Source of the DNA: an uncultured Clostridia bacterium
GTDB lineage: Bacteria > Bacillota > Clostridia > Lachnospirales > Lachnospiraceae
Assembly (NCBI GenBank): GCA_946624325.1
Contig: CAMOSC010000006.1
Coordinates: 1-36,890 of the forward strand
DNA length: 36,890 nucleotides
Direction: 5' to 3'
The notes under the pieces are model-generated. The model saw nothing but the letters and a program-made list of their open reading frames with translations, made no database searches and was not told the origin of the DNA. The position numbers were made by a program, and so were the translations under genes. Shown here piece after piece: positions 6,856 to 36,664 of this stretch (its first letter is position 1; each line of letters opens with the position of its first letter).

Positions 6856-8394
6856 TCAGAAGCCAAACTGCTCCTTCAGCTGCGCGGCCCTTTCGGTCAT
6901 GTAGGCGTCAAGCTTTTCCACGCCGATCTGCTTGATGATGCTCATCCAGTTCTCGTAGGCAGCCTCAAACTCCTCATCGCTTTCTGCGGTGTAGATCTTT
7001 ACAAGCTCGGCGTTTCTCGCGTCGTTGATCTTGCTGCGGATAACCGCCTCATCGGATCCGCTTGCGGGCAGGGCTACGGCCAGCTCCGGATAGGAGACAA
7101 TCTTATCCAGGTTCTTGGTGAAGTCGGCAAGGTTCTCTTCGTCCAGACCGGAATAGTAGGTGTATGCCTCATCCAGCTCGGTGGTGCACATATACCAGTC
7201 GTTCGCGTAGTCCGTGGTGAAGGTGTCGCCCGCGCGGGCTGTCAGATATTCCTCGGTAAACTGCGGGGCGCCGTTTTCGTCGGCAACCCAGTCGATGCCC
7301 TCTCTGCCCCACAGTGCCAGATGACGGCCTTCCTCGCTGTTCATGTAGGCAACCATCTTGATGGCGGCTTCCGGATCCTTGCAGTTTTTGGAGATAAAGA
7401 GTCCCGCCCAGCCGGAGTTGGCGCGCTGCTGTTCAACGGCATCATCCGGAATCGGAACCAGGGCGATCTGACCGTCCGGGAATTCCTTCTTCAGGTCGCG
7501 GTTGAGGTTCTCCATCTGGGGCGTGGGCCTTGCGTTCCACTCATACATGAAGGTCAGTCCGGAGATTTCCTGCTGTCTTGCGTCGTCTTCCACGGTGAGG
7601 GCAAGGTTCTCTACAGAGAAGTATCCGGCCTTGTACATCCTGTTGACAAACTTCAGGTAGTTGTAGAAGCCTTCGGTCTCGTCGCGGAGCTGTACGGTGC
7701 CTGCGTCATCGGTATAGAGGAATTCGTTGCTGCTGGCGAGCCAGTCGCAGAAGCAGGAGAGCCTCCAGACATTGTTTCCGGCGTTCAGCGGCATCATATC
7801 CGGATAGGCTTCCTTGACCATGCCCATAACATTGAAGATATCCTCCAGGGTATCCATGGACGGGGAGCCGAGGGCCTCCCAGATATCCTTCCTGTAGTAC
7901 AGGCCGGAAACGCCGGGGGCTACACCCTTTGCGTTTGCCCATTCCTCCTGGGTATTGTAGTTCTGGACGATGGTATAATAGTGCTCATCCTCGGGATCGA
8001 TATTGTGGGTCTTGGCGATGCCGATGCGCTCGGAATCCGGCTCCCAGTCAATACCGTACTCGGCGATCAGCTCGTCGTAGGAGTACACCAGCTCCGGATC
8101 GCAGAGCTTGGAAACATCATCGGTCCAGACGAGGTCCGGAAGCTCGCCGGATGCGATCATCAGGCCGAGCTGGCCGTCGTCCGCGGCGCGGGTCACTTCG
8201 AAATTAACGCCGCCGTTTTTGGTCAGCTCCTGCGGGATAATGCCCTGCCAGGAATCCTGCGGGAACCAGGTGAAGTCCACAAACAGATCCAGGGTAACCG
8301 GCTCGGCCTCCGCTTCCTCAGCGAATACGGCCATGGGGGCGAGAGTCATGCACATAGAGCCTGCAAGGACAAGTGACAACAGCTGCTTTTTCAT
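6856..8394 (-). CDS. Secreted solute-binding protein of a sugar ABC transporter (family 1, LipO/YtcQ-like)
   Basis: This 512-residue protein starts with a clear signal peptide (MKKQLLSLVLAGS...MAVFA, cut near residue 25 before EEAEAEP). I see no proper lipobox before a cysteine, so it is probably not a lipoprotein, unlike many relatives. The body has features of large family 1 extracellular binding proteins: a glycine/proline-rich start (VDFTWFPQDSW), GELPDLVWTDDV, and a late MNSEEGRHLALWGREGIDW segment, a common signature of the YtcQ/LipO group. The RBS is AGGAGG. It follows the two permease genes and precedes the GH95 gene. The partners suggest an oligosaccharide ligand, and the usual missing ATPase would be a shared MsmX-type protein encoded elsewhere. 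Confidence 0.93.
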   Translation of the reverse strand: MKKQLLSLVLAGSMCMTLAPMAVFAEEAEAEPVTLDLFVDFTWFPQDSWQGIIPQELTKNGGVNFEVTRAADDGQLGLMIASGELPDLVWTDDVSKLCDPELVYSYDELIAEYGIDWEPDSERIGIAKTHNIDPEDEHYYTIVQNYNTQEEWANAKGVAPGVSGLYYRKDIWEALGSPSMDTLEDIFNVMGMVKEAYPDMMPLNAGNNVWRLSCFCDWLASSNEFLYTDDAGTVQLRDETEGFYNYLKFVNRMYKAGYFSVENLALTVEDDARQQEISGLTFMYEWNARPTPQMENLNRDLKKEFPDGQIALVPIPDDAVEQQRANSGWAGLFISKNCKDPEAAIKMVAYMNSEEGRHLALWGREGIDWVADENGAPQFTEEYLTARAGDTFTTDYANDWYMCTTELDEAYTYYSGLDEENLADFTKNLDKIVSYPELAVALPASGSDEAVIRSKINDARNAELVKIYTAESDEEFEAAYENWMSIIKQIGVEKLDAYMTERAAQLKEQFGF

Positions 8395-29056: not shown

Positions 29057-31465
29057 ATGAAGAAACAGCTTGCTTTGCTCATGGCTGCATCCATGGTACT
29101 CGGTACCGCTGCAGTCGCCTACGCCGAAGAAGCGGCAGACACGCCGCTGGTTGTTGCGACCAACACGCTTTCCCAGAAGTTCAGCCCGTTCTTTGCGGAT
29201 ACCGCGTATGATCAGGACGTGGTAGCGCGCACCCAGATGAGCATGATGACCACCGACCGTGTGGGCGGCATCATCTACAACGGCATTGAGGGCGAAACCG
29301 TCAACTACAACGGCACCGACTACACCTACTATGGTACCGGCGACCTGTCCGTTGAGTACGACGAAGCTACCGACATCACCACCTACGGCTACAAGATGCG
29401 TGAGGACCTGGTTTTCTCCGACGGCGTACCGGCAACCATCGATGATGTCATTTTCAACTACTATGTATTCCTGGACCCCGCTTACAACGGCTCCACCACT
29501 CTTTCCAGCTACGACATCGTAGGTCTTCAGGCTTACAGAACCCAGATTCCGGAAGCAAACCTGGAAGAGACCCAGGCCGCTGCCGATGCCATTATGGCTG
29601 CTTACACCGCAAACGGCCCCGAGTATACCGTGGCTGAGAGCGACGGCTTTACGCAGGAGCAGTATGACAGCTATGCACAGGCTGCCACCGCTCTGTGGAA
29701 GGAAGACGTTCAGGGCATCGTGGATTATGTCTACGCGAACTATGCTGCGGACTACGCTGAGGATATGCTCGGCAAAACCGCCGAGGAAGTCGGTGAGGAT
29801 GAGGGCCTGAAGGTTGCTCTGGGCATGGCTTTATGGGGCTTTGCAAGCATTGAAGACGGTGTGCTCACCACCAGCGACGGCAAGGAATTCAAGCTCGATG
29901 AGGCTGCGCCGACCGTTGATGATTATTATGAGGCTACCTATGCGGCTTACGGCGGCGATATCGACGCTTACCTCGGCACCGAGTCTGCCACAGGCGCTAC
30001 CTCCGATGCCATCAAGAGCGAACTCCTTCAGAAGATCGCAGAGGACGCCGGCGTAGATATGGAAGCAGGCGTTCCGAACATCTCCGGTATCACCCGTGTG
30101 GATGATTACACCCTCGAGGTGAAGGTGAACGGCTTCTCCGCTCCCGCGGTTTACTCCATTCTCGGCTTAAGCATCGCTCCGATGCACTACTATGGCGACG
30201 AGGCTCAGTACGACTATGAGAACAACCAGTTCGGTCACCCCTTCGGCGACCTGAGCACTGTTCAGGCAAAGATCGACGCTCCCATGGGCGGCGGCCCCTA
30301 CAAGTTTGTGAAGTATGAGAACCGTGTGGTTTACTACGAGGCAAACGAGAACTACTACCTTGGCGCACCGGAAATCAAGAGCTTCCAGTATAAGGAGACC
30401 AACGCCTCCGAAGTTGCAAGCGCGGTTCAGACCGGAGCTGCAGACGGCGGCGAGATGACCGGAAACAAGGCAAACTTTGAGATGCTCCGCGGCTTCAACG
30501 ACAACGGTGAGGTTACCGGAAATGTCGTTACCACCTACAGCGTCGCAAACCTCGGCTACGGCTACATCGGCATGAACGCCGATACCATGAACGTTGCCGG
30601 AGAGCCCGGAAGCGAGGCCTCCAAGAACCTTCGTAAGGCATTCGCAACCGTTCTGGCCGTATACCGTGATACCGCGTATGACAGCTACTACGGCGACGCC
30701 GCAGCTGTTATCAACTATCCGATTTCCTCCACCTCCTGGGCAGCTCCGCAGCCGTCCGACGAAGGCTACCGCGTAGCGTACTCCGTTGATGTGGACGGAA
30801 ACCCGATCTATACCGCAGACATGAGCACCGAGGACAAGTATGCCGCCGCCCTTGAGGCAGCAAAGGGCTTCCTGATTGCGGCAGGCTATACCTACGACGA
30901 GGCATCCGGCACCTTCACCGAGGCTCCGGAAGGCGCTTCCCTGTCCTATGAGGCCATCATCCCCGGCGACGGCACCGGCGACCATCCGAGCTTCGCAATC
31001 CTGACCGACGCCCGCAATGCCCTTGCCACCATCGGCATCGAACTCAAGATCAACGACCCGGCAGACTCCAACGTTCTTTGGGATGCGCTTGACGCAGGTA
31101 CCCAGAATATGTGGTGCGCGGCATGGGGCTCCACCATTGACCCGGATATGTATCAGGTATATCATTCCTCCAATATCGTAGGTCTCGGCGGCTCCGATTC
31201 CAACCACTATCACATTCAGTCTCCGGAGCTTGACGCCATGATCCTTGACGCCAGAAAGTCCGCTGATCAGTCCTATCGTAAGGAAGTTTACAAGGCTGCC
31301 CTCGAGGAGATCATGGACTGGGCCGTAGAGATTCCGGCTTATCAGAGACAGAACATTGTCATCGCTTCCACTGAGCGCGTTGATATCGACACCGTGACTC
31401 CGGATGTTACCACCTATTGGGGATGGCTGTCCGAGGTTCAGACCATGAAGATGCGCGAGCAGTAA
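29057..31465 (+). CDS. oppA: Peptide ABC transporter binding protein (SBP family 5) with extra insertion
   Basis: The track opens at 28976; ATG at 29057 follows AGGAGGA and opens a signal peptide (MKKQLALLMAASMVLGTAAVAYA). No lipobox is seen. The mature protein has the OppA/DppA pattern: TNTLSQKFSPFFADTAYDQDV, MREDLVFSDGVPATIDDVIFNY, RKAFATVLAVYRDTAYDS, AWGSTIDPDMYQVYHSSN. Most family members are 540-600 residues; this one is 802. The extra length is mainly a helical, acidic stretch at about 170-340. It also contains a duplicated-looking Ala/Tyr-rich composition. Codon choice is strongly biased (ACC, AAC, TAC, GCT/GCC), as expected for abundant expression. It leads the opp operon and should deliver peptides to the permease with an equally unusual insertion. 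Confidence 0.93.
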   Translation: MKKQLALLMAASMVLGTAAVAYAEEAADTPLVVATNTLSQKFSPFFADTAYDQDVVARTQMSMMTTDRVGGIIYNGIEGETVNYNGTDYTYYGTGDLSVEYDEATDITTYGYKMREDLVFSDGVPATIDDVIFNYYVFLDPAYNGSTTLSSYDIVGLQAYRTQIPEANLEETQAAADAIMAAYTANGPEYTVAESDGFTQEQYDSYAQAATALWKEDVQGIVDYVYANYAADYAEDMLGKTAEEVGEDEGLKVALGMALWGFASIEDGVLTTSDGKEFKLDEAAPTVDDYYEATYAAYGGDIDAYLGTESATGATSDAIKSELLQKIAEDAGVDMEAGVPNISGITRVDDYTLEVKVNGFSAPAVYSILGLSIAPMHYYGDEAQYDYENNQFGHPFGDLSTVQAKIDAPMGGGPYKFVKYENRVVYYEANENYYLGAPEIKSFQYKETNASEVASAVQTGAADGGEMTGNKANFEMLRGFNDNGEVTGNVVTTYSVANLGYGYIGMNADTMNVAGEPGSEASKNLRKAFATVLAVYRDTAYDSYYGDAAAVINYPISSTSWAAPQPSDEGYRVAYSVDVDGNPIYTADMSTEDKYAAALEAAKGFLIAAGYTYDEASGTFTEAPEGASLSYEAIIPGDGTGDHPSFAILTDARNALATIGIELKINDPADSNVLWDALDAGTQNMWCAAWGSTIDPDMYQVYHSSNIVGLGGSDSNHYHIQSPELDAMILDARKSADQSYRKEVYKAALEEIMDWAVEIPAYQRQNIVIASTERVDIDTVTPDVTTYWGWLSEVQTMKMREQ

Positions 31466-31703: not shown

Positions 31704-32699
31704 ATGTGGAAATTTATCGTCAGACGTGTGGCGCTGGCAGCCGTCATCGTTTTTCTTGGGTCCTTTATTATCTACGGCGTCATGCGTGCCATGCCCACGA
31801 GCTTTGTGGAGGCTATGGCAAGGCAGCGCGCCGCTGCCTCTGCCACTACGGGCGGTCCTACCTACAAGGAATGGCTGGATCAGCTCAATGCCGCCTATCA
31901 TCTGGATCAGGGCGTATTCCTGGGCTTTATCAGCTGGTTCGGCAGCGTCATCACAGGGGATTTCGGGGACAGCTGGAAATATGGCGTACCCGTTATCCAG
32001 AAATTCAGCGAAGTCATCTGGTACTCCGTCGTTCTCAATATCATTTCGCTGGTGCTTGAAGTGGTCATCTGCATCCCGCTCGGCATCCAGGCGGCGCGCC
32101 GCCAGTACAGCGGCTTCGACTACGGTATCATGGTTTTCGCCATGCTCTGCATTTCCCTGCCGACCTTCTTCCTGGCGACGGTGCTGAAGTATATCTTTGC
32201 CGTTCACCTTGGATGGTTTGACCTCTACGGCATTGTAGGCCGTTATCATGAGCAGCTCAGCAGCACGGGCAAGATGCTGGATATGGTGAACCACATGTTC
32301 CTTCCGGTGCTGACCCTGGCCATGCTGCACATCGGAGGCCTGACCAGGTATACCAGAACCAATATGCTGGAGGTGCTCAACGCGGATTATATCCGTACCG
32401 CAAGGGCGAAAGGCCTTTCGGAGCGCGTGGTCATCAACCGTCACGCATTCCGGAACACCCTGATTCCGCTTGTCAGCTACATGAGCTATCTGATCCCGAG
32501 CCTCTTCTCCGGATCGATGATCACGGAAACCCTGTACCAGATTCCCGGTATCGGCTATATCTCCTATGATGCCATGGTGGCGGGAGATCTCCCCTTTACC
32601 ATGTTCTATTCGGTCTTCCTGCTGATCCTCACCCAGATCAGCCTGATGGTGGCCGATATCATGTATGCCGTGGTAGACCCGCGGGTACGCATCAACTAA
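31704..32699 (+). CDS. oppB: Peptide ABC transporter permease, OppB type
   Basis: The track opens at 31554; ATG at 31704 follows AAGGAAA and gives 331 residues of normal family length. The first helix is AAVIVFLGSFIIYGVMRAMP, and five more follow after a periplasm-side loop. The docking loop contains YIRTARAKGLSERVVINRHAFRN, matching the EAA motif of OppB/DppB. The C-terminus (MYAVVDPRVRIN) is the family's standard ending. It forms the channel together with OppC, whose gene begins 21 bases later. Opp, Dpp and App types cannot be separated here. Confidence 0.95.
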   Translation: MWKFIVRRVALAAVIVFLGSFIIYGVMRAMPTSFVEAMARQRAAASATTGGPTYKEWLDQLNAAYHLDQGVFLGFISWFGSVITGDFGDSWKYGVPVIQKFSEVIWYSVVLNIISLVLEVVICIPLGIQAARRQYSGFDYGIMVFAMLCISLPTFFLATVLKYIFAVHLGWFDLYGIVGRYHEQLSSTGKMLDMVNHMFLPVLTLAMLHIGGLTRYTRTNMLEVLNADYIRTARAKGLSERVVINRHAFRNTLIPLVSYMSYLIPSLFSGSMITETLYQIPGIGYISYDAMVAGDLPFTMFYSVFLLILTQISLMVADIMYAVVDPRVRIN

Positions 32700-32720: not shown

Positions 32721-34481
32721 ATGAGCGAGGAAAAGAACAAGAACACTTCAAATGAACAACAGCTCTCTCTGGACGACGGCCGCCGCGTAAAGGTGCTCTC
32801 GCCGGGCATGATGGTTTTCAAGCGCTTTATCCGCAACAAGCTGGCCATTGTGGGCATCTGCGTGCTGATCTTCATGTTTGTCTTTTCGTTTGTGGGCGGA
32901 ATAGTTTCACCCTACAGACAGGACCAGGTTTTCTACAAGAACGATTTCGCCAACAAGGAATACGCCAGTGCCGTCATCAACAACGAGTACCGTTTCACGT
33001 CGGCGACCGGCACGCCCCTCTCCACGATGGTGCGCGCCACCTTTAACAGCAAGGTGAAAAACGCATCTGAGGAAAGCGTCAGCTTCACGGCGGACGGAAA
33101 CACCTATATCGCGACAAAGCTGGATGATGATTTTTACACCATCTCCTCCGGACAGGATCTGGCGACCATCGCACTGCTGGGCAAGATGACGGATATCAAA
33201 CCCATCGGCGATGCGGAGATCGGAAAGGATCTGAAGGACGCCGCCACAGAGGCCATCAGGGAGAATGCCGCATCCTTTGAGCTGGACGGCGTGGAGTACA
33301 GCATCACCAAGGGAGCCGCCAAGAGCTACACGCTCGGCGCGCTGGCTGAAACGGGCCTCGCCAGCAAGCTTTCCTTTGACGCCCACGACAATGCCTACAC
33401 GAAGCTCATCGCGGACTACGAATTCCGCAAGGAAGCGGAGACTGCCATGCACGCGGAAGCGGATTCCTTTACGGCCGGCGGGGTGGAGTATATCCTGGAC
33501 ACCGACGGAGAGAACAGCGCGGTGATCTATGAAAAGGGCAGGGACGAGGCAATCGCCAGCGTGAGCAACGTGATTGTCAGCCCGGTCAATTCCGACGTAT
33601 TCCTTCCGATCGAGTATAAGGACGCGGCTGCGGAGGCCATTGCGAACCGTGAGACCTCCTTCACCTATGTCAATGCGGACGGCGAGGAGGAAACCCACAC
33701 CATCACCATGCGCGGCAACAACTACATCATCAGTACCATGCAGAAGACCCTGCTGATCGATATGTACGCCTATCCCAGCTTCGCGCATCCCCTGGGCACC
33801 GACGACCACGGCATGGACGTGCTCACACGCCTCATGTACGGCGGCCGCATCTCCCTGATGGTGGGCTTTGTGGTTATGATTCTGGAAAACATCATTGGTA
33901 TCATCATCGGCGGTATCTCGGGATATTTCGGCGGCTGGACCGATACGCTGCTCATGCGTTTCGTGGATCTCTTCAACTCCATCCCCTACTACCCGATGAT
34001 GATCATCGCCGGCGCCATCATGGATTCCCTGGAGGTGGATCCCTACAAGCGCATATTCCTGCTGATGGCCATCATGGGCATCATGGGCTGGACCGGCGTG
34101 GCCAGGGTGGTCCGTGGCCAGATCCTCTCCCTCAGGGAACAGGATTTCATGGTCGCAACCGAGGCAACCGGCATCCGCGTATCCAGACGTATCTTCATCC
34201 ATCTGGTGCCGAATGTCATGCCGCTTCTGATCGTGCAGGCCACCATGGGTCTGGGCGGCATTATCCTGACAGAGGCGACCTTAAGCTTCCTGGGACTCGG
34301 AATCAAGTATCCGCTGGCTTCCTGGGGTTCCATTATCAATGCCGCCAGCCAGATCTATGTCATGACGAATTTCTGGTTTATCTGGATACCGGCGGGACTC
34401 TTAATCGTTCTGACGGTGCTCGGCTTCAATTTCGTGGGCGACGGTCTGCGCGACGCGTTTGACCCGAAGATGAAGCGGTAA
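32721..34481 (+). CDS. oppC: Peptide ABC transporter permease, OppC type, with a large extracytoplasmic repeat domain
   Basis: The protein has 586 residues, against about 300 for most OppC proteins. Helix 1 (LAIVGICVLIFMFVFSFVGG) ends near residue 60. The normal OppC core resumes at HPLGTDDHGMDVLTRLMYG (about 355), with the docking loop ATEATGIRVSRRIFIHLVPN and the usual ending GDGLRDAFDPKMKR. Between them lie about 290 extra residues expected outside the membrane. They include three full repeats and a fourth start, each beginning SF, at residues 121, 185, 249 and 313, a constant 64-residue period. Each unit has SFxxxGxxY strands and ends in a helix such as KDAATEAIRENAA. The ATG at 32721 follows AAGGAGG. 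The insertion may bind the enlarged binding protein. Confidence 0.95.
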   Translation: MSEEKNKNTSNEQQLSLDDGRRVKVLSPGMMVFKRFIRNKLAIVGICVLIFMFVFSFVGGIVSPYRQDQVFYKNDFANKEYASAVINNEYRFTSATGTPLSTMVRATFNSKVKNASEESVSFTADGNTYIATKLDDDFYTISSGQDLATIALLGKMTDIKPIGDAEIGKDLKDAATEAIRENAASFELDGVEYSITKGAAKSYTLGALAETGLASKLSFDAHDNAYTKLIADYEFRKEAETAMHAEADSFTAGGVEYILDTDGENSAVIYEKGRDEAIASVSNVIVSPVNSDVFLPIEYKDAAAEAIANRETSFTYVNADGEEETHTITMRGNNYIISTMQKTLLIDMYAYPSFAHPLGTDDHGMDVLTRLMYGGRISLMVGFVVMILENIIGIIIGGISGYFGGWTDTLLMRFVDLFNSIPYYPMMIIAGAIMDSLEVDPYKRIFLLMAIMGIMGWTGVARVVRGQILSLREQDFMVATEATGIRVSRRIFIHLVPNVMPLLIVQATMGLGGIILTEATLSFLGLGIKYPLASWGSIINAASQIYVMTNFWFIWIPAGLLIVLTVLGFNFVGDGLRDAFDPKMKR

Positions 34482-34500: not shown

Positions 34501-35664
34501 ATGTTTAAGAAGAAAAAGACAGATGCCAATTTTATCTCAGCCCGCGAGTCCAGGAAGATCAGCAAGGCAAACCAGAAAATCACAAGGGAGCTGGATAAGA
34601 GGCTTTCCAGAAAGCACGTTCCGGAGAGCGAATACCTGACGTCCATGAAGGATCCCGGAAACGTAGTGGAATTTGACGACCTCCACACGTATTTCTTCAC
34701 AGATGTCGGCACCGTGCATGCGGTTGACGGCGTGAGCTTCAATGTGCCGGTCGGAAAAACCGTGGGTATCGTGGGTGAGTCGGGCTGCGGCAAGAGCGTT
34801 ACCAGCCTGTCGTTAATGCAGCTGGTTCAGCGCCCCACGGGACAGATCGTCAGCGGTGCCATCCGTCTGAATCTTGGCGACAAGGCCTATGACGTGGCGA
34901 AGATGCCCATCGAAGCCATGCAGAAAATCCGCGGAAACGTGGTCTCCATGATCTTCCAGGAGCCCATGACAAGCTTAAATCCGGTGTTCCGCATCGGATT
35001 CCAGCTGGACGAGGTCATCTCCCTGCACAATACGGGCATGGATAAAGAGGCGGTGAAGAACCGCAGCATCGAGGCCCTGAAGATGGTGGGAATTCCGGAT
35101 CCGGAAAGGGTTTATTCCCGGTATCCGCATGAGCTCTCCGGCGGCATGCGCCAGCGCGTGGTCATTGCCATGGCGCTCGTGTGCAACCCGAGGCTGATCA
35201 TTGCCGATGAGCCGACAACAGCTCTGGACGTGACCATCCAGGCACAGATCCTGGAGCTTCTTCGCAACTTAAAGAGTGAGATCAACGCCTCCATCATGCT
35301 GATTACCCACGACCTGGGCGTGATCGCCGAGATGGCGGACTATGTGGTGGTTATGTATGCCGGACGCGTGGTGGAAAAAGGACTGGCCCACGAGGTCTTC
35401 CTGGATCCGCGCCACCCCTATACCATCGGCCTGATGGAGTCCAAGCCCGTCATCAACAAGACTGTCGACAGGCTGTATTCCATACCCGGTTCCGTGCCGA
35501 ACCCCGTCAATATGCCGGATTACTGCTATTTCCGTGACCGCTGTGAGCGCTGTGTGGAACGCTGCTCGGGCAAGTACCCGCCGGAGATCCATGTGAGCGA
35601 TACCCATATCGTCAGCTGCTGGCGGTATTTTGACGATCAGAAGCGAGGTGGAAGAGATGAGTAA
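34501..35664 (+). CDS. oppD: Peptide ABC transporter ATPase, OppD type
   Basis: The protein has 387 residues. A basic, lysine-rich extension of about 55 residues (MFKKKKTDANFISARES) precedes the ABC domain and is not typical of OppD. The domain holds Walker A GESGCGKS, Q-loop FQEPMTSLNPV, signature LSGGMRQR, Walker B LIIADEPTTALD and the H-loop THDLGV. The C-terminal oligopeptide domain has the cysteines of CYFRDRCERCVERC, which bind an iron-sulfur cluster in some characterised homologues. Translation starts after GGGAGG. It pairs with OppF to drive import. Confidence 0.96.
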   Translation: MFKKKKTDANFISARESRKISKANQKITRELDKRLSRKHVPESEYLTSMKDPGNVVEFDDLHTYFFTDVGTVHAVDGVSFNVPVGKTVGIVGESGCGKSVTSLSLMQLVQRPTGQIVSGAIRLNLGDKAYDVAKMPIEAMQKIRGNVVSMIFQEPMTSLNPVFRIGFQLDEVISLHNTGMDKEAVKNRSIEALKMVGIPDPERVYSRYPHELSGGMRQRVVIAMALVCNPRLIIADEPTTALDVTIQAQILELLRNLKSEINASIMLITHDLGVIAEMADYVVVMYAGRVVEKGLAHEVFLDPRHPYTIGLMESKPVINKTVDRLYSIPGSVPNPVNMPDYCYFRDRCERCVERCSGKYPPEIHVSDTHIVSCWRYFDDQKRGGRDE

Positions 35665-36664
35665 CCAGTCTGAAAATGTTGTGGAGGTTAAGCATCTCTG
35701 CAAATATTTCCCCATCAAGGCGGGACTGTTCAACCGTGTGGTGGGGCAGGTGCATGCCGTGGAGGATGTCAGCTTTACCATTAAGCGCGGCACGACCATG
35801 GGTCTGGTGGGCGAATCCGGCTGCGGAAAGACCACCATCGGAAAGACCCTGCTGAACCTGACGCCCAAGACCTCCGGAGAGGTGATTTTCAACGGCAGCC
35901 AGCGGATTGACGCCATGTCTCATAACGAGCTTCGCGCTTTCCGCCCGAAAATCCAGATCATATTCCAGGATCCGTACTCCAGTCTTTCTCCCAGGCTTCC
36001 CGTGGGTGAGATTATCGGGGAGGCTGTGCGCGAGCACAAAATCGTTCCGGATGCGGAGTTTGATGCCTATATCTCCCGTATTATGAAGAGCTGCGGCCTG
36101 TTTGACTATCAGAAGGACCGCTATCCGCATGAGTTTTCCGGCGGTCAGCGCCAGCGTATCTGCATAGCCCGCGCCATAGCCCTGAATCCGGACTTTATTG
36201 TCTGCGATGAGCCGGTTTCCGCGCTGGATGTTTCCATTCAGGCGCAGATCATCAATCTCCTGGAGGATCTCCAGAAGGAGTTTAACCTGACCTATCTGTT
36301 TATCAGCCATGACCTGTCGGTGGTGCAGCATATTTCGGATACGGTTGGCGTTATGTATCTGGGCAATATGGTGGAGTTTGCCTCCAAGGAGGAGATTTTT
36401 GCGAATCCCCTGCATCCGTATACGCAGGCGCTCTTTTCGGCTATCCCGGTGCCGGATCCCACGGTGAAGATGAACCGCATTATCCTGGAGGGAAGTCTTC
36501 CGTCGCCGGCGAATCCGCCGGAGGGCTGCAAGTTCCATACGCGCTGCCGCAACTGTAAGGGCGTGTGTAAGCGCGTGGCGCCGAAGACGCTGGATATGGG
36601 CAACGGACATACGGTTGCGTGCCATATCTATGACCCGGAGAGCGGGTATGCAAACGAGCAGTGA
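35657..36664 (+). CDS. oppF: Peptide ABC transporter ATPase, OppF type
   Basis: The track opens at 35630, but ATG at 35657 follows GAGGTGG and gives 335 residues, overlapping oppD by eight bases. The protein has Walker A GESGCGKTTIG, Q-loop FQDPYSSLSPR, signature FSGGQRQR, Walker B FIVCDEPVSALD and SHDLSVV. The C-terminal part has EGCKFHTRCRNCKGVC, the cysteine-rich end typical of OppF/DppF. The insertion LFNRVVGQVHAVEDVSF before Walker A is standard for OppF. It is the last gene in the window and probably of the operon. Confidence 0.96.
   Translation: MSNQSENVVEVKHLCKYFPIKAGLFNRVVGQVHAVEDVSFTIKRGTTMGLVGESGCGKTTIGKTLLNLTPKTSGEVIFNGSQRIDAMSHNELRAFRPKIQIIFQDPYSSLSPRLPVGEIIGEAVREHKIVPDAEFDAYISRIMKSCGLFDYQKDRYPHEFSGGQRQRICIARAIALNPDFIVCDEPVSALDVSIQAQIINLLEDLQKEFNLTYLFISHDLSVVQHISDTVGVMYLGNMVEFASKEEIFANPLHPYTQALFSAIPVPDPTVKMNRIILEGSLPSPANPPEGCKFHTRCRNCKGVCKRVAPKTLDMGNGHTVACHIYDPESGYANEQ

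Follow-up and report, generated by a model that had tools for sequence, protein, structure and literature searches.

The window, a stretch of 36,890 nucleotides from an uncultured Clostridia bacterium of the Lachnospiraceae, carries an operon for a peptide ABC importer in which the gene of the binding protein is followed by those of OppB, OppC, OppD and OppF. A GGAGGAG ribosome-binding site lies upstream of the binding-protein start at 29057. The features of this operon are the following:

29057..31465, + strand: peptide-binding protein of family 5 (SBP_bac_5), 802 aa; its signal peptide lacks a lipobox (open reading frame, Pfam, AlphaFold2, Foldseek)
29543..30079, + strand: insert of the binding protein, residues 163-341, an acidic subdomain made up mostly of helices, flanked by the DDVIF helix and the ITRVDDYTLEVKV strand (anchored alignment, AlphaFold2)
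31704..32699, + strand: OppB-type permease of normal length, 331 aa
32721..34481, + strand: OppC-type permease, 586 aa, OppC_N plus BPD_transp_1 (Pfam, structure model)
32919..33770, + strand: extracellular domain (ECD) of OppC, residues 67-350, between TM1 and TM2
33003..33206, + strand: ECD repeat 1 (alpha-beta3) (model, profile comparison)
33207..33386, + strand: ECD repeat 2 (model, profile comparison)
33387..33596, + strand: ECD repeat 3 (model, profile comparison)
33597..33770, + strand: ECD repeat 4 (model, profile comparison)
34501..35664, + strand: OppD-type ATPase (Pfam)
35657..36664, + strand: OppF-type ATPase (Pfam)

The binding protein was assigned to family 5 by its match to SBP_bac_5 (PF00496; E = 2.7e-34, 119.3 bits against a cut-off of 32.4), which was split in two stretches separated by a gap at the site of the insert. 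Foldseek confirmed a cluster C fold for the AlphaFold2 model (mean pLDDT 90.5), with matches to 1xoc, 4oet and 3drf at E below 1e-18. The whole fold is shared with AppA of B. subtilis (1xoc; E = 8e-25, TM normalised by target 0.72), and it is also like that of two further family 5 (cluster C) proteins, NikZ of C. jejuni (4oet) and the lactococcal OppA (3drf). However, the structures of these three proteins lack the ~170 residues of lobe I that distinguish the window protein, which, unlike this comparison set, also has no lipobox.

According to the anchored alignment, the insert comprises 179 residues of lobe I and adds about 170-175 residues relative to the short relatives; the distance between the anchors at residues 130 and 345 is 215 residues in the window protein versus 41-48 in the latter. 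The initial annotation had proposed an extra stretch of about 170 residues at 29560-30090, close to the coordinates measured here, and its description of this stretch as acidic and helical agrees with a composition of 38 acidic and 7 basic residues and with the AlphaFold2 model, in which helices occupy residues 166-186, 200-238, 242-247, 249-259, 287-297, 302-309 and 317-330, and short strands at 263-279 form a small beta hairpin. Averages of 10-residue pLDDT blocks over the insert ranged from 77 to 97. The DDYTLEVKV segment, before which the insertion had been placed, indeed lies C-terminal to it, starting at residue 349. No Pfam family attained its cut-off on the insert. Since an insert is found at the same site in all 51 related transporters that have an ECD, it does not represent an assembly error.

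The second enlarged component, an expanded OppC encoded in the same operon, is equally real. At 586 aa, it contains OppC_N (PF12911, residues 27-75) and BPD_transp_1 (PF00528, residues 393-586) in this order and above their cut-offs, and its position after OppB and before OppD and OppF is that expected of an OppC-type permease. In the structure model, the ECD consists of four repeats, each formed by one helix and three strands. The repeats proved to be mutually homologous by profile comparison (88-97% probability, with 0.3-1.2% for reversed controls). Across relatives, the stretch that precedes the HxLGTD motif of OppC ranges from 271 to 534 residues, which fits about 3 to 6 repeats. No Pfam family attained its cut-off on the ECD, and all PDB hits of the OppC model that reached an E-value below 0.001 were membrane-domain relatives; the best of these were DppC and OppC chains, aligned over the membrane part only.

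The gene layout of the operon is similar to that of DppABCDF and OppBCDF of E. coli and OppABCD of M. tuberculosis, and the membrane part of the window OppC is 34-39% identical to DppC/OppC chains; however, the OppC and DppC chains of the E. coli and M. tuberculosis systems have 287-302 aa and no ECD. In the maltose transporter of E. coli, a large permease loop, the P2 loop of MalF, contacts the binding protein. The likeness to the ECD is one of principle only, since the subunit family and the position of the loop differ, and the Foldseek alignments of the OppC model to MalF chain F, with an rmsd above 20 Angstrom, showed no fold relation. The pneumococcal AmiC is an Opp-type permease that also has a large inserted extracellular domain; its ECD1 and ECD2 are predicted to hold the binding protein (PMC11192437). 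The ECD of AmiC starts at residue 31, so that, judging from topology and gene order, AmiC appears to be of the OppB type, whereas the enlargement in the window is in OppC. In DppABCDF of E. coli, it is a scoop motif of the OppB-type subunit that fills the cleft of the binding protein (PMC12136057). In the literature on large extracellular additions to Opp-type importers, AmiC was the only case found; among the Clostridia surveyed here, such additions are recurrent.

The initial annotation took the presence of both insertions in one operon as a sign of their co-evolution. To evaluate their joint occurrence, 150 pairs of OppC and binding protein were measured in order-level genomes and GTDB contigs. 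In the clade of the window, every OppC that bears an ECD and has a complete binding protein (51/51) is accompanied by an insert of similar size, with an anchor-to-anchor distance of 161-232 residues compared with 41-48 where the insert is absent; two more ECD systems (L203 and L217) have incomplete binding-protein frames and were excluded from the 51. The closest operon among the named genomes belongs to an uncultured Clostridiales bacterium (L180). The association is one-way, however. Relatives without the ECD carry an insert, homologous at least in part, at the same site in 23 of 41 cases and lack it in the other 18, and the class-level survey yielded 6 further same-contig pairs in which an OppC of 354-376 aa accompanies a binding protein of 825-848 aa; these six were judged by frame length only, and some may duplicate organisms of named loci. 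Hence, of the proposed co-evolution, the part that stands is that the ECD was never seen without the insert within the clade, but many genomes have the insert alone, an outcome that the initial annotation had itself listed as refuting its proposal. Outside the clade, ECD-bearing OppCs are found paired with binding proteins lacking an insert at this site (e.g., L094-L101, L104 and L105), and two distant systems (L107 and L111) have both parts. One of these insert-less cases, L104 (G000:C74), is from the window's own genome, where a second, distant ECD-bearing OppC of 588 aa is paired with a binding protein of 609 aa. Two relatives depart from the pattern of the clade: an uncultured Acholeplasmatales bacterium (L222) carries the insert but not the ECD, and L102 has neither.

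The order in which the two parts appeared was examined on trees, all of them obtained from quick searches without a mixture model. On the tree of OppB plus the membrane domain of OppC, the distribution of the ECD needs two changes and that of the insert five. Both this tree and the combined tree resolve the two ECD changes as one gain and a loss in L102, and support for the 52-row clade that holds the ECD is full. An 11-row sister clade, which has the insert and no ECD, joins the ECD clade on the binding-protein tree with starred support. Its insert is homologous to that of the window (hhalign, 99% probability, E = 6e-19, short flanks included); that of L084 resembles it by eye, while those of L063 and several other members of a third group are not clearly homologous to it. 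As the sister of the ECD clade carries only the insert, this part most likely predates the ECD. With the insert preceding a single gain of the ECD, the 51 pairs amount to about one independent event. The placement of the exceptions depends on the tree: the combined tree nests L102 within the ECD clade (98* support), but the OppB plus OppC tree alone did not reject a position outside the ECD systems (p-AU 0.30); L222 falls inside the clade on the binding-protein tree and just outside on the combined one; and holding all 51 ECD rows apart from L102 and L222 was rejected on the binding-protein tree, though only at p-AU 0.03.

Co-evolution could also be reflected in length. Before phylogenetic correction, ECD length and insert size show a rank correlation of 0.67, a value that is largely due to shared ancestry. 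Independent contrasts reduced it to r = 0.27, both with 92 systems (p = 0.01) and with 142 (p = 0.001), and this weak association fell to r = 0.10 (p = 0.35) and r = 0.15 (p = 0.09), respectively, when L102 was left out, which indicates that the corrected association is carried mainly by this one genome. Inside the ECD clade, the lengths do not track each other (r = 0.11, p = 0.42).

From these results, we consider it probable that the insert is an older accessory subdomain of lobe I and that a transporter already equipped with it gained the ECD in a single event. The binding protein would have possessed the subdomain before OppC acquired the ECD at the root of a single clade of transporters; the number of ECD repeats would later have varied from about 3 to 6 without a matching change in the insert. 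Its location in lobe I and its presence in systems without the ECD make a self-sufficient accessory subdomain the best reading of the insert; it may widen the outer rim of this lobe and could shape the presentation of the binding protein or of its ligand independently of the ECD. The latter, in turn, might offer an additional surface to hold the docked binding protein, as the P2 loop of MalF does or as is predicted for the ECDs of AmiC. Contact between ECD and insert is possible in the members of the clade that have both, although the insert could not require it. Three observations do not sit easily with an older, independent insert: L102, nested in the ECD clade, lacks both parts, as functional coupling would give; the weak association of sizes persists after phylogenetic correction in the 142 systems; and part of the third group (e.g., L063) has an insert with no clear homology to that of the window.

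The first of these observations would be expected if the insert and the ECD were an obligate, co-evolved docking pair in which the ECD recognises the insert. The 51 complete ECD systems of the clade, each with its insert, are consistent with such a pair, and a clamp on the binding protein has been predicted for the ECDs of AmiC (PMC11192437). We nevertheless regard an obligate pair as unlikely, given that the insert is common without the ECD, L222 keeps it without the ECD, the lengths show no tracking within the clade, and the binding protein of the distant ECD-bearing system L104 has no insert; a strict pairing of the two insertions is ruled out by the survey and the trees. Similarly doubtful is a more elaborate version, in which a tower of variable alpha-beta3 repeats on OppC would clamp the binding protein through the lobe-I insert and both would be lost together when the clamp is abandoned, which would amount to a new importer architecture. 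An insert that came first, together with a repeat tower that changes length independently, removes a tempting, mostly wrong story of paired evolution and shows which part can be studied alone.

It is somewhat less plausible still that the insert has no specific role and simply occupies a surface loop that, in family 5 binding proteins, tolerates changes in length. Among relatives, this site does hold anything between no extra residues and about 260 of them, and part of the third group has an insert with no detectable homology to that of the window. On the other hand, the anchor-to-anchor distance is kept at 161-232 residues in the clade despite large divergence, homology with the insert of the sister clade is detectable, and the insert is predicted to be a folded subdomain, all of which speaks against a loop of this kind.

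The absence of a lipobox in the window binding protein raised a further alternative. This protein has an AYA|EE type signal peptide and no Cys before residue 687, the only one in its sequence; consequently, it does not have the lipobox that characterizes the lipoprotein binding proteins of monoderm Firmicutes. The same was true of all the family 5 and family 1 binding proteins sampled with readable N-termini in the genus of the window (G000, G001 and G002), which carry signal-peptidase-I-like sites (window 29057-29130 and 6856-8394; L150-L179 and L292-L317); among the sampled family 1 reads, L317 and L311 do not have clean N-termini. Two automatic lipobox calls were dismissed upon inspection, since the Cys falls within the hydrophobic core, ahead of an AxA site. 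In two other genera of the family, a lipobox was present in 10 of 10 family 1 proteins sampled. Loss of the lipoprotein pathway was rejected as the cause, since Lgt and LspA were found in both of the more complete genus mates (G001 and G002); they were not found in the window's own genome, an 85% complete draft. At the level of titles and abstracts, the literature showed nothing evident on lipobox-less binding proteins in Lachnospiraceae. The possibility that the enlarged parts tether an unanchored binding protein to the permease in place of a lipid anchor is suggested by this one feature, but it is highly improbable, because the binding proteins of nearly all other ECD-bearing systems are lipoproteins and the other unanchored ones of the genus are mostly paired with OppCs of normal size. 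As the insert and the ECD are also seen elsewhere with lipoprotein binding proteins, the missing lipobox explains neither of them.

Some additional observations were made in the course of the survey. Close relatives of the ECD-bearing OppC (L182, L184, L185, L189 and L240) were present in drafts titled Chloroflexota, Cloacimonetes, Anaerolineaceae and Coriobacteriaceae, which suggests either horizontal transfer or binning errors. Long frames of 729-853 aa, which scored with ATPase-contaminated profiles, adjoin the expanded OppCs of L107 (G001) and L106 (G000). Finally, the window binding protein has two smaller insertions, at 29273-29356 and 30764-30832 (about residues 73-100 and 570-592), which correspond to an IEGE hairpin and a DVDGNPIY segment; both are common to the ECD clade and L102 and are absent from the short relatives.
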